From Persicirhabdus sediminis (GTDB taxonomy: Bacteria; Verrucomicrobiota; Verrucomicrobiia; Verrucomicrobiales; Akkermansiaceae), in NCBI RefSeq assembly GCF_016595495.1, contig NZ_JAENIM010000009.1, positions 124,001 through 188,000 of the forward strand: a stretch of DNA of 64,000 nt. The letters run 5' to 3'. Each line of letters opens with the position of its first letter. The first letter of the stretch is position 1. Made by a program: the position numbers and the translations under genes. The notes beneath the pieces were generated by a model. The model searched no databases. It worked only from the letters and a program-made list of their open reading frames with translations, and had not been told where the DNA came from. This document shows, piece by piece, positions 18,087 through 28,045 of this stretch.

Positions 18087-18167
18087 CCCAATAGCAATCA
18101 GCTAACTTGAACCTTGAATCCTCATGGCCGCCACCTAGCATGCCACTGCCAATCGCGCGCCATTACC

Positions 18168-19142
18168 ATGCCATTACTTGAGGTCAACCAGCTGAGTACC
18201 CGCTTCCATACCCGCAACGGAATTGTCCACGCGGTGGAAAACCTGTCCATGCAAGTCGGCCACGGTCAGACGCTAGGCATCGTCGGCGAATCTGGCTCGG
18301 GCAAATCAGTCTCCTGTTATTCGCTACTCGGGCTGATCCCCCAGCCTCCGGGAAAAATCCACTCAGGTAGCGCGATGTTTGATGGCACCGACCTGCTAAA
18401 AGCGAGCGAGCCCGAACTACAAAAAATCCGCGGCAAAAGGATCTCGATGATTTTTCAAGATCCCATGACATCGCTCAATCCCTACCTGAAGATTTCTACC
18501 CAGCTGATAGAGCCGCTAGAAATTCACCTAGGAATCACCGGCAAACCAGCACTAGAAGCCGCCATTGAATCTCTAGCTGAAGTTGGCATTCCCGAGCCAG
18601 AAAAACGCATCCACAGCTACCCACATGAATTTTCCGGTGGTATGCGTCAGCGTGTTATGATCGCCATGGCGCTGATCACCCGCCCCGAGCTGCTCATCTG
18701 TGACGAGCCAACCACCGCGTTAGATGTCACCGTTCAAAAACAAGTGCTAGACCTCATCAAGGCGCGGCAGAAAGAGCTCGGTACCGCTGTCATTCTCATC
18801 ACCCACGATCTCGCAGTCGTTAGCGAGTACTGCGATCACGTCAATGTCATGTACGCTGGCCGAGTCGTCGAAAGCGCGCCAGCTGACCTGCTTTTCAGCC
18901 ACCCACGCCACGCGTATACGCGCGCGCTGCTCAAGAGCATTCCAGCTAACCATAAGAAAGGTGAATCGCTCTACACCATCCCCGGCATGCCGCCTAACCT
19001 CAGTAACCCGCCAGCTGGATGTTCATTCCAGCCACGCAATACCTTAGGCAATGCCAAGCTCTGTGAAACATCTAGCCAGCCAGAATTGGTAGAAATTTCC
19101 CCACAACATTGGGTGCAAAACTGCCCAGGATGCCTCGCCTAA
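18168..19142 (+). CDS. OppD/DppD-type peptide ABC transporter ATPase
   Basis: This 324-aa ATPase starts LLEVNQLSTRFHTRNG as in the Opp/Dpp class. It has Walker A GESGSGKS, signature SGGMRQRV and Walker B LLICDEPTTALDVT. The C-terminal extension (from about residue 250) is the peptide-transport type, GCSFQPR with several cysteines and a final C-P-G-C. Such ATPases pair with OppF and two permeases, none of which is encoded nearby. The ATG at 18168 is chosen because the domain starts there. The transport partners may be elsewhere in the genome. Confidence 0.9.
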   Translation: MPLLEVNQLSTRFHTRNGIVHAVENLSMQVGHGQTLGIVGESGSGKSVSCYSLLGLIPQPPGKIHSGSAMFDGTDLLKASEPELQKIRGKRISMIFQDPMTSLNPYLKISTQLIEPLEIHLGITGKPALEAAIESLAEVGIPEPEKRIHSYPHEFSGGMRQRVMIAMALITRPELLICDEPTTALDVTVQKQVLDLIKARQKELGTAVILITHDLAVVSEYCDHVNVMYAGRVVESAPADLLFSHPRHAYTRALLKSIPANHKKGESLYTIPGMPPNLSNPPAGCSFQPRNTLGNAKLCETSSQPELVEISPQHWVQNCPGCLA

Positions 19143-19213: not shown

Positions 19214-19915
19214 ATGTACAAGCAACTACTGTGCGGCTTGATCAGCTGTACGATTCTAACTCATGCTTCTGCAGAATACAGAACATGGACTAATAGCGAT
19301 GGAACCAAGACCTTCAAAGGTGAGTTCCAATCACAGGAAGGTGACAAAATCACCGTAAAAATGCATGGCGGTAAGAAGGTGACCTTCTCCGCTGACATGC
19401 TCAGCGAAGCCGATCTAGAATGGATCAAGCTAGCTAAAGAACAACAAGAGCTCAATGCCAAGCAAGATGCTGAGGTGGCCAAATACGCCAACTCAAAAAT
19501 GGGCACCGCGCTGAGCAAAAAGAAACTCAAAATCCTTGAAAGCAAGCGCTTTGCCTCCTACGAGATGACAAAATCTCCAGAGTACTTTCTACTCTACTTT
19601 TCTGCTAGTTGGTGAGGACCTTGCAAAACTTCAGCTCCACAGTTGGTGGAGAAATACAAAGAGTCTATCCAAAATAACAGTCAGGTTGAAATGATTCACA
19701 TCAGCCGCGACAGAGATAAATCAGCAGCCCTCGATTGGGCAAAACAAGAATCTTTCCCGTGGCCAACTTACCTTCCGGGCGATACGCCAGATGACATCTG
19801 GAATCTCAAAGCCACTTTTGTCCCATTTTATTGTTTGGTTGATAGAGACGGAAATAAATTAGCTGAAGGGTCAGCTGCCTGTTTCAAAAAAATCAAAGAA
19901 CTCAGCGGCAACTAA
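19214..19915 (+). CDS. secreted SHD1-thioredoxin fusion, probable selenoprotein (UGA at 19613)
   Basis: Read as one frame this codes 233 aa. Residues 1-20 are a signal peptide. Residues 22-75 are an SHD1-like domain (YRTWTNSDGTKTFKGEF then LSEADLEWI), followed by a lysine-rich linker and a thioredoxin domain. Codon 134 is TGA, and the context is S-A-S-W-(UGA)-G-P-C-K, so the stop replaces the first cysteine of W-C-G-P-C exactly. The two halves (19214-19615 and 19616-19915) share the frame and no other stop occurs between them. A hairpin at 19635-19651 fits a SECIS. The best reading is selenocysteine. A nonsense mutation or sequencing error is the alternative, with the cysteine-to-UGA match arguing against chance. 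Confidence 0.75.
19635..19651 (+). promoter_or_regulatory. candidate SECIS hairpin
   Basis: A 6-bp perfect stem (19635-19640 with 19646-19651) has a 5-nt loop AGTTG. The loop starts 25 nt after the UGA at 19613-19615 and has a G in its second position followed by U. Bacterial SECIS elements are small stem-loops within the coding region, whose loop is placed roughly 16-37 nt after the UGA with a G among its first two bases. The fit is good, though the stem is short. Confidence 0.6.
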
Positions 19916-19967: not shown

Positions 19968-21029
19968 TTATTCTATCAGCTCGCATACTCCTGAGCTCAC
20001 CCGATAGCGTGGTGCCTCAGTATAGGTGCCGTCTAACCAGTCTAGATTGGTAGTGGTGATCAACTTCTGCGCCTGCTCAGGAAGTCTAGCAAACACAGCA
20101 TTGCGCCGCTGAGTATCTAGCTCACCAAAGATGTCATCCAGCAGATAGACTGGCAATTTCCCCCGCGCCTGCTGCAGCAGCTCACCTTGGGCTAACTTGA
20201 GAGCCAGCGCAATTGTGCGCTGTTGCCCTTCGCTAGCAAAATCACCCGCCGGCATACCATTGATCGTTAGCTTCAGCTCATCACGGTGCGGGCCCACCAC
20301 CGTCTGCCCAAGCCGCCGTTCGCGCTGTTCTGTCATTTGTAAATTCTCCGCTAGATCATCACCAGATCCAGATTGATAGCTCAGCGCCAATGTCTCATTG
20401 CCCGCGCTGATGCTGCGCTGCACATCGCCAGCTAGCTCGCTGAGCCGCTCAACCATTTCGCTGCGTTGCTGGCTGATCAGCTGGCCATTTTCTATCAATA
20501 TCTGCGCGTAAGCATCCAACTCAGCCTGCGAGCTTCGCTGATCTTTGAGCAAGTGGTTGCGAGATTTCAGCGCACGCTGGTAGCGCACCAGCGCCACTCG
20601 GTATTCCAGGCTCAGCTGGCTGCCGATGAAGTCGAGGTAGCGACGACGCACGCTGCCACTGCCGCGGATCAGCTCGATGTCTTCATTGCCCATCCACACG
20701 ATCAGCCCGCCAGCGGCTAGATACTCAGCTTGGCGATCTACCGGCTCACCTTCCACCTGCAATTTCATGCCCGCATGCGACGAGTAGCGAATTTGCAGCT
20801 CAGAATCCCAACACGAGCCAGCCACTCCCAGCTCGTTATTTTCAAATTTCACCATGTGGGAATTTCGCCCCGCACGAGGTGAATGCAGCCGCACCAGCAT
20901 GCAAACTGCCTCCAGAATCGACGTTTTCCCCTGCGCATTATCCCCTACAAATAAGGCGCCAGACGCGTTCATTTCGAGCGACAAAGACTCAAAACAACGG
21001 AAGTTCATCAGGCGCAGTTGCGAAATCAT
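19968..21029 (-). CDS. recF: RecF recombination protein
   Basis: This 353-aa SMC-like ATPase starts MISQLRLMNFRCFESLSLEM and has the Walker A GDNAQGKTS (residues 29-37). A central segment with GSVRRRYLDFIGSQL follows, then VVGPHRDELKLTINGMPAGDFASEGQQRTIALALKLAQ, the RecF signature, and Walker B YLLDDIFGELD near residue 290. RecF loads RecA at gaps with RecO and RecR. The gene stands alone, not in a dnaA-dnaN-recF cluster. It diverges from the downstream ECF sigma gene, with starts 97 bp apart. Confidence 0.93.
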   Translation of the reverse strand: MISQLRLMNFRCFESLSLEMNASGALFVGDNAQGKTSILEAVCMLVRLHSPRAGRNSHMVKFENNELGVAGSCWDSELQIRYSSHAGMKLQVEGEPVDRQAEYLAAGGLIVWMGNEDIELIRGSGSVRRRYLDFIGSQLSLEYRVALVRYQRALKSRNHLLKDQRSSQAELDAYAQILIENGQLISQQRSEMVERLSELAGDVQRSISAGNETLALSYQSGSGDDLAENLQMTEQRERRLGQTVVGPHRDELKLTINGMPAGDFASEGQQRTIALALKLAQGELLQQARGKLPVYLLDDIFGELDTQRRNAVFARLPEQAQKLITTTNLDWLDGTYTEAPRYRVSSGVCELIE

Positions 21030-26650: not shown

Positions 26651-27568
26651 ATGCTAGAGCTGGGGCAAGTAAACCCTTTGGCGATGGACGCGGTAGGTGA
26701 AGCATTTCTTAGTGATGACCAATGGCGAGGTCTGGCTGCTAGACACCTGCAGCGGGCGCGAGAGATCACCGCGGGTGCACGCAAACGGCGCGACTCACGC
26801 CAGCCGCATCCGATATTGGATTTTCTCTTTATTTACTACCCGTTTCCCTTTGCCAAGATAGAGAAATGGCACCCGCAGCTAGGGCAGGTCTTGCAGCTGA
26901 CAGATGGAGGTGAGAATCCATTCACCAGGAAACACTACCAGCTGGAAAATGGGCTCATTAGGCTCCAGCCAGCGGCACTGGACGAGGCGGCTCGCGGGCG
27001 GTTGCAGTCGATTCTCGACCTGCAGCGGGCGATTTCCCAACGACCGGGGAAATTTGCCTGTGGCTTGATCCACGAATGGGCGATGGTTTACCGCGGCAAC
27101 CGCATCAGCTATCAGCTGGATACGCCGCTGCGGCTGAGCCAGGCGGAGATTGACCGCCATGTGGAATCGCAGCGCTGTGTGTGCACGCATTTTGATGCTT
27201 ATCGGTTTTTTGCCGAGGAAGCCAAGCCGCTGAATGCGCACCAGATGACTACGGCATCGCGCCACCAGCTAGAACAGCCAGGCTGCTTGCATAGCAATAT
27301 GGATTTGTACAAGTGGATCAGCAAGTGCATGCCGTGGATGGGATCTGAGCTGCACTGGCAAAGTTTCCAGCTGGCGATGAAGGCACGTGAGCTGGACATG
27401 CGGGCAAGCCCGTACGATGTTTCAGCTTACGGCTATGAGCCGATCTGCGTGGAAACTTCCGCAGGTCGAGCAGAATTCGAGCTTGAACAACGCGCGCTCA
27501 GCCATCATGCACAGGAGATCAGAAACTCATTCATCCACTCACTTAGCCAGCTCATCGCCACCAGCTGA
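26651..27568 (+). CDS. 3-methyladenine glycosylase-annotated family protein
   Basis: This 305-aa cytosolic protein has the landmarks of a family often labelled 3-methyladenine DNA glycosylase: HPILDFLFIYYPF near residue 53, then KIEKWHPQLG, FDAYRFFAEEAKPLN near 190, LEQPGCLHSNMDLYKW near 210 and ELDMRASPYDVSAYGYEPICVET near 250. I recall such proteins in actinobacteria and verrucomicrobia. The glycosylase function is an annotation label rather than an experimentally proven one here. The gene is followed immediately (GTG directly after its TGA) by a GreA/B-like factor, so the two are coupled. Confidence 0.65.
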   Translation: MLELGQVNPLAMDAVGEAFLSDDQWRGLAARHLQRAREITAGARKRRDSRQPHPILDFLFIYYPFPFAKIEKWHPQLGQVLQLTDGGENPFTRKHYQLENGLIRLQPAALDEAARGRLQSILDLQRAISQRPGKFACGLIHEWAMVYRGNRISYQLDTPLRLSQAEIDRHVESQRCVCTHFDAYRFFAEEAKPLNAHQMTTASRHQLEQPGCLHSNMDLYKWISKCMPWMGSELHWQSFQLAMKARELDMRASPYDVSAYGYEPICVETSAGRAEFELEQRALSHHAQEIRNSFIHSLSQLIATS

Positions 27569-28045
27569 GTGAGTACCACGCGTATGGAAAAACAAGATAT
27601 CGTTAAGCAGCTCATTGATCAACTTGAAGAAAAGCTCATGGTCATGGCGCAGGCAGCTCAGGAAACTCACGAGGCATCTACCGGCTCAGAAAATGCTGCT
27701 GAGGGGAAATATGATACACGCGGGCTAGAGGCATCGTATTTGGCCAATGCGCAGGCTGAGCAGGTGAAAGTGATGCAAAGCCAGCTGGACTCGCTGAAAT
27801 CTGTGACGCTGGAGAAATTTGAGCTGGGTGAGCCGATTGACATCGGTGCGCTGGTCGAGCTAGATCGCGAGGAAGAGCTGGAGTATTTCCTGCTGCTGCC
27901 ATCTGCTGGTGGCCTCACCTTGCCGTTTCGAGATTCTACGCTAACAACGATTGCGCCTGAGTCGGCATTGTTCCAGCAGCTATTCCACCGCGGGCTGGGC
28001 GATATGATCGAGCCGGGTGAAATGCTCATCCTCGGCATCAGTTGA
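27569..28045 (+). CDS. GreA/GreB-like transcription factor
   Basis: This 158-aa protein has an N-terminal coiled coil with a conserved acidic tip (AEGKYDTRGLEASYLANAQAEQ, about residues 45-67) and a C-terminal FKBP-like domain that includes VELDREEELEYFLLLPSAGGL. This resembles GreA/B-family factors that enter the RNA polymerase secondary channel, though it is a divergent type. The GTG at 27569 directly follows the stop of the upstream gene; an ATG at 27584 starts MEKQD and may be the real start. Confidence 0.75.
   Translation: MSTTRMEKQDIVKQLIDQLEEKLMVMAQAAQETHEASTGSENAAEGKYDTRGLEASYLANAQAEQVKVMQSQLDSLKSVTLEKFELGEPIDIGALVELDREEELEYFLLLPSAGGLTLPFRDSTLTTIAPESALFQQLFHRGLGDMIEPGEMLILGIS

Follow-up and report, generated by a model that had tools for sequence, protein, structure and literature searches.

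In this study, we analysed a 64,000-nucleotide stretch of the Persicirhabdus sediminis genome, referred to below as the window, and propose that the gene at 19214–19915 encodes an exported selenoprotein, in which a SECIS-directed selenocysteine at residue 134 would form part of a thioredoxin-fold thiol/selenol-disulfide oxidoreductase. Judging from the sequence evidence laid out here, we assign this reading a probability of roughly 0.96. Its individual parts differ in strength. Decoding of the UGA as selenocysteine appears strongly supported, the redox chemistry of the thioredoxin domain would follow from its fold and motif, and any statement on the substrate, the reductant or the direction of the reaction (as a reductase, an isomerase or a partner of a peroxidase) is conjectural.

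Translation of the frame on the forward strand yields a single internal TGA at codon 134, in the context Y-F-S-A-S-W-*-G-P-C-K. The stop thus takes the place of the first cysteine of W-C-G-P-C, as the preliminary description of this DNA had stated, and its further statements that both halves share one frame and that this frame is otherwise intact hold as well. The thioredoxin fold that it saw on both sides of the TGA is borne out by Pfam, since in the read-through protein Thioredoxin_8 matches across this codon with 43.9 bits (cut-off 27), and the Thioredoxin and AhpC-TSA models, with matches likewise spanning the TGA, score above their cut-offs. The gene is solitary between an oligopeptide-type ABC transporter ATPase upstream (18114–19142) and an SMC/RecF-like ATPase on the opposite strand (19968–21029). 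In the window and in 15 relatives no conserved neighbour genes were found besides tandem copies of the gene itself, and the neighbourhoods therefore point to no substrate. Coordinates of all features are collected in Table 1.

Table 1. Features of the candidate selenoprotein gene in the window, and of selD from the same genome.
Feature	Position	Strand	Details	Basis
Putative selenoprotein gene	19214..19915	+	233 aa, predicted Sec at residue 134, stop TAA	translation, Pfam, homologues
UGA predicted to be read as selenocysteine	19613..19615	+	codon 134, residue 1 of the W-U-G-P-C active site, N-terminus of helix 135–151	homologues, synonymous sites, model
Probable Sec-pathway signal peptide	19214..19273	+	residues 1–20, ...THASA|EYRTW	read from sequence; low pLDDT at residues 1–20
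SHD1-like small beta-barrel	19271..19441	+	residues 20–76	Pfam SHD1, model strands
Helical linker	19406..19519	+	residues 65–102	model helices 65–92 and 95–102
Thioredoxin-fold domain	19526..19906	+	residues 105–231	Thioredoxin_8, model, Foldseek
Resolving Cys137	19622..19624	+		invariant in alignment
Pro204, probable cis-proline facing the active site	19823..19825	+		invariant in alignments; cis presumed
Bacterial SECIS hairpin	19635..19651	+	5' arm 19635–19640 CUCCAC, loop 19641–19645 AGUUG, 3' arm 19646–19651 GUGGAG	
selD	L010:1480-2532		also a selenoprotein gene, with its UGA in SCGGUASK and its own hairpin, loop AGUUU	

The preliminary description had made its reading depend on selenocysteine machinery and proposed a genome search for selA, selB, selD and tRNA-Sec. 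In the P. sediminis assembly (4.17 Mb, 47 contigs, 96.7% complete) all four are present. Profile searches found selA with 504 bits against a cut-off of 267.9 and selB, of 637 aa, above its cut-off; selD, likewise above its cut-off, carries one in-frame TGA of its own in S-C-G-G-U-A-S-K, and the tRNA-Sec scores 51.8 bits (cut-off 47) with the anticodon TCA (UCA) according to ARAGORN. The set by which a bacterial selenoprotein can be recognised, SelA, SelB, SelD and tRNA-Sec(UCA), is thus encoded in the same genome as the gene.

Homologues holding a TGA occur in 35 of 98 related genomes. For 30 copies read from fetched loci the TGA lies at the aligned codon in every case, while the remainder were counted by a tally of genes with one TGA inside. 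The surrounding motif is W-U-[GPV]-P-C in 29 of these 30 copies and W-U-P-S-A in one. With the UGA feature recurring in dozens of relatives, we consider this a real family. The alignment of homologues that had been suggested as a check places Cys at this position in some members and UGA in many, with coding maintained on both sides, and the UGA tracks selA, which was detected in 34 of the 35 genomes with a TGA homologue compared to 9 of the 63 without (Fisher p ~7e-17, with relatedness ignored). The single exception, G059, has both selB and tRNA-Sec above cut-offs, so that a gap in the assembly is the probable reason for its missing selA. G059 also holds the W-U-P-S-A copy (L045), in which the resolving Cys has been lost while the SECIS is kept; it is possibly decaying or repurposed, and some copies may therefore be inactive. 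At L023, L024, L034 and L035 (G064, G026, G036, G042), thioredoxin genes with a UGA stand in tandem in groups of two or three.

A fresh nonsense mutation would also look like a single TGA in an open frame, and a pseudogene of this kind or a sequencing error therefore had to be weighed. However, the TGA is found at the aligned codon in 30 homologous copies from many separate assemblies, and selection acts on the protein past the TGA and on the hairpin behind it. We reject mutation or error as refuted by this conservation, its remaining probability being close to nil. This agrees with the earlier argument that a chance nonsense mutation was unlikely to hit this codon, and because the TGA recurs across assemblies, resequencing of 19613–19615, which had been named as a check, is not critical any more. 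If UGA coded for one of the standard amino acids, such as Trp or Cys, throughout the genome, the frame would equally be open, but 6 of the 42 long ORFs in the 64-kb window end at TGA, among them ParB, whose C-terminal domain finishes just before its TGA although the frame behind it is open. Furthermore, homologues have Cys at the UGA position while the adjoining Trp codon is TGG, and the UGA is linked to selA and SECIS. With UGA still serving as a stop elsewhere, as in ParB, genome-wide recoding is rejected as extremely improbable.

The hairpin directly behind the UGA has a stem of 6 bp and a loop AGUUG with G at position 2, lies 25 nt from the UGA (counted to the loop) and has an energy of -9.1 kcal/mol in the window copy. 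The rules for bacterial SECIS elements in a 2026 review ask for an apical loop of 3–9 nt, a stem of 4–16 bp, a G in loop positions 1–2, a distance from UGA to loop of 16–37 nt and an MFE <= -7.5 kcal/mol (PMC13188914), all of which the window hairpin satisfies; some relatives with a C.A mismatch miss the energy rule. In the 30 copies the codons +7 to +11 after the UGA, encoding A-P-Q-L-V, are nearly uniform, with GCT in 24/27, CCA in 25/29, CAG in 30/30, TTG or TTA in 28/28 and GTG in 30/30. At these codons the observed synonymous identity exceeds expectation by 0.27 to 0.68; synonymous constraint covers codons +7 to +13, and background is reached again past +19.

Covariation in the stem was measured by pair counting in place of RNAalifold, which gave no consensus structure for the 30 hairpins, probably because of a C.A mismatch in mid-stem, at the third pair from its base, in one copy out of four. 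By this count 91% of cells are paired and double-sided changes occur in three of the six pairs; the covariation score was reached by none of 500 shuffles, and all slid controls were lower. Compensatory variants are CGCCAC/GUGGCG (L047) and UUUCAC/GUGAAA (L051), and a pattern search allowing one mismatch added a further double change, CCGC-AGUUA-GCGG, in G008 and G020. Compared to shuffles of the 51-nt stretch, the window hairpin shows no excess stability (z -0.56). The hairpin of the genome's own selD has a different stem and lies 32 nt from its UGA; its loop also starts with AGUU, which fits recognition of both hairpins by a single SelB. When the genomes were searched with the hairpin pattern, nearly all exact matches looked like copies of the gene, judged by sequence and place, with few apparent background hits (e.g. 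in G018, G092 and G093), and in the own genome the window copy is the only exact match. Constraint and covariation on the hairpin thus join the in-frame UGA where homologues have Cys, flanked by coding on both sides, the association with selA and the machinery in supporting the selenoprotein proposed at the outset, and the UGA at 19613–19615 is, on these comparative data, almost certainly a selenocysteine codon.

As a side observation, codons in front of the UGA are also conserved. At 19586–19597 (codons -9 to -6; L022–L051), Tyr at -9 is TAC in 22/25 and Leu at -7 is CTC in 20/22 copies. Synonymous conservation at -9 and -7 lies above expectation in the UGA copies and is weaker in the 11 Cys homologues inspected. 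CUCUAY could pair with GUGGAG, the 3' arm of the hairpin, so that a competing helix is possible, as is a codon preference.

The AlphaFold2 model of the window protein, calculated from a 28-row alignment with U entered as C, has a pLDDT of 90.5. Most family members have an A-x-A then R-T-W-T-S boundary where the probable signal peptide of the window protein ends, and the modelled barrel that follows comprises strands 22–27, 33–42, 45–50 and 55–59. The earlier label "SHD1-fused" is borne out in part: the model shows a separate N-terminal beta-barrel, Pfam SHD1 (PF03983) scores 20.9 bits in this protein, short of its 23.7-bit cut-off, and E<=0.001 is reached in 7 of 23 family members. We speak here of an SHD1-like barrel. 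Residue 134 is placed immediately before the start of the active-site helix, and Pro136 is invariant in the alignment. Foldseek and sequence searches gave thioredoxin 4fyu, tryparedoxins, ResA and StoA as nearest folds to the thioredoxin part, and the NCBIfam models for thioredoxin (28.9 vs 96.8), ResA (24.5 vs 170), StoA (24.3 vs 210) and DsbE (24.4 vs 123.15) stayed below their curated cut-offs. With WUxPC at a helix N-terminus, a thioredoxin fold and a conserved Pro nearby, the protein displays the hallmarks of a thioredoxin-fold oxidoreductase.

In known systems termination is in competition with decoding directed by a SECIS, and selenocysteine insertion could accordingly be conditional and mainly regulatory, with low selenium yielding only the 133-residue SHD1-like part, which is a separate domain in the model. 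However, the C-terminal thioredoxin domain is the most conserved part of the protein, and the N-terminal barrel is missing from some of the TGA copies in tandem. Selection therefore keeps the full-length product, and we regard a mainly regulatory role as very improbable. Some of the copies lacking the barrel start like lipoproteins; in G026 and G036 the shorter copies of the tandem begin with lipobox-like sequences (L-G-G-C, L-A-S-C), so that lipoprotein forms probably exist. A selenoprotein with a peroxidase or selenium-handling role instead of disulfide exchange is a more serious contender, given that the Redoxin and AhpC-TSA models match too and that the nearest folds include tryparedoxins, which act as partners of peroxidases. 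Against this, W-U-[GP]-P-C together with the invariant second Cys and the conserved Pro is the pattern of a dithiol oxidoreductase and not the TxxU/TxxC pattern of peroxidases, which makes such a role unlikely.

For the favoured reading as a disulfide oxidoreductase, we propose a model in which, with selenium available, SelA and SelD would produce Sec-tRNA(Sec), which SelB, bound to the hairpin behind the UGA, would bring to the ribosome. Instead of halting at residue 133, the ribosome would then complete the 233-residue protein. Once exported, its thioredoxin domain would act as a thiol/selenol-disulfide oxidoreductase, with Sec134 as the attacking residue and Cys137 resolving the intermediate. 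Re-reduction would probably be carried out by a DsbD/CcdA-like electron carrier in the membrane; two DsbD_TM proteins are encoded in the own genome and could be the electron source.

A scan of named genomes gave Cys in all 82 motif matches at 80 loci; its pattern, in which Sec is written as Cys, reaches Cys homologues only. Those Cys forms that were inspected have no SECIS hairpin or a changed one. L055, for instance, retains A-P-Q-L-V-E, written GCTCCGCAACTCGTGGAA, without the hairpin. The Cys forms L048 and L049 keep a stem CUCCGC/GCGGAG with a loop that starts with AUCU, not AGUU, and has no G at position 2, which is possibly a SECIS remnant. In the maximum-likelihood tree all Sec forms fall into a single clade (99/97), within which Cys rows are nested, and at least three Sec/Cys changes are forced by well supported branches. 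For the nested Cys group L052–L055 (support 98/91 and 97/85), a Sec-to-Cys reversion is the best reading of the tree; for the two remaining switches the direction depends on rooting. selA is still present in the genomes of the Cys forms L052, L053, L055 and L057, while no selA match was obtained in the genomes of L054 and of the Akkermansia isolate L063. The nested Cys rows are of interest since, according to the review, bacteria seldom change Sec to Cys, the known cases being mainly FdhA and SelD (PMC13188914).

Thioredoxin-like selenoproteins as such are known, as the preliminary description had noted: among the UxxC families listed in the review are Trx, thiol-disulfide isomerase-like proteins and a Prx-like thiol:disulfide oxidoreductase (PMC13188914). 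Like them, the window protein has a thioredoxin fold in which Sec replaces the leading Cys of CxxC, and a SECIS directly 3' of the UGA, but no listed family was seen to have an N-terminal SHD1-like barrel, going by the family descriptions. In line with the earlier remark that an exported, SHD1-fused version is little described, part of the table and a term search of this catalogue of 119 selenoprotein families returned no SHD1-fused family, the review makes no mention of Verrucomicrobiota (PMC13188914), and a literature search for selenoprotein plus SHD1 gave nothing relevant. A Sargasso Sea survey reported a "thiol-disulfide isomerase-like" UxxC family of four sequences (PMC1088965). Membership of the window protein in a family of this name is possible.

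Other relatives differ more clearly. ResA/StoA/TlpA-type extracytoplasmic oxidoreductases are likewise exported thioredoxin-fold proteins of the CxxC type, and StoA and ResA are among the best matches, but they are Cys-based and lack the SHD1-like barrel, whereas the window protein combines predicted Sec with the barrel. The tryparedoxin/nucleoredoxin-like thioredoxins (Thioredoxin_8), which supply its best Pfam and PDB matches, are eukaryotic, cytosolic, Cys-based and partners of trypanothione. SHD1-Trx proteins of Akkermansia and other Verrucomicrobiota have the two-domain layout in common and WCxPC at the matching place, but use a Cys codon, with the SECIS hairpin absent or altered where inspected. 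The exported two-domain UGA proteins, with their tandem copies and probable Sec-to-Cys reversions, thus apparently represent an uncatalogued family of selenium enzymes, as far as can be read from the sequences. A broader picture, which we offer tentatively and with the odds somewhat against it, is that uncatalogued envelope selenoproteins run selenium-based disulfide exchange in Verrucomicrobiales, using tandem copies of two UGA-containing forms, a soluble SHD1-like-Trx protein and a Trx lipoprotein of shorter length, and undergoing repeated Sec/Cys switching, with erosion of the SECIS after each return to Cys.

Annotation of UGA as a stop would shorten such genes, and an envelope redox enzyme in about one third of the sampled related genomes may consequently be recorded as truncated or as a pseudogene. 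The Verrucomicrobiales, little discussed in the selenoprotein literature searched, are added to the selenium-using groups. Within the family, Sec forms can be aligned with Cys forms, the SECIS is unusually uniform, and the machinery is present in some genomes and absent from others, so that it can be tested directly how selenocysteine is gained and lost. Elsewhere in the window, at 26651–28045, a 305-aa ORF ending in TGA is followed directly and in the same frame by a 158-aa ORF with a GTG start; neither has a Pfam match, and the pair probably represents two coupled genes, with readthrough being possible as well.
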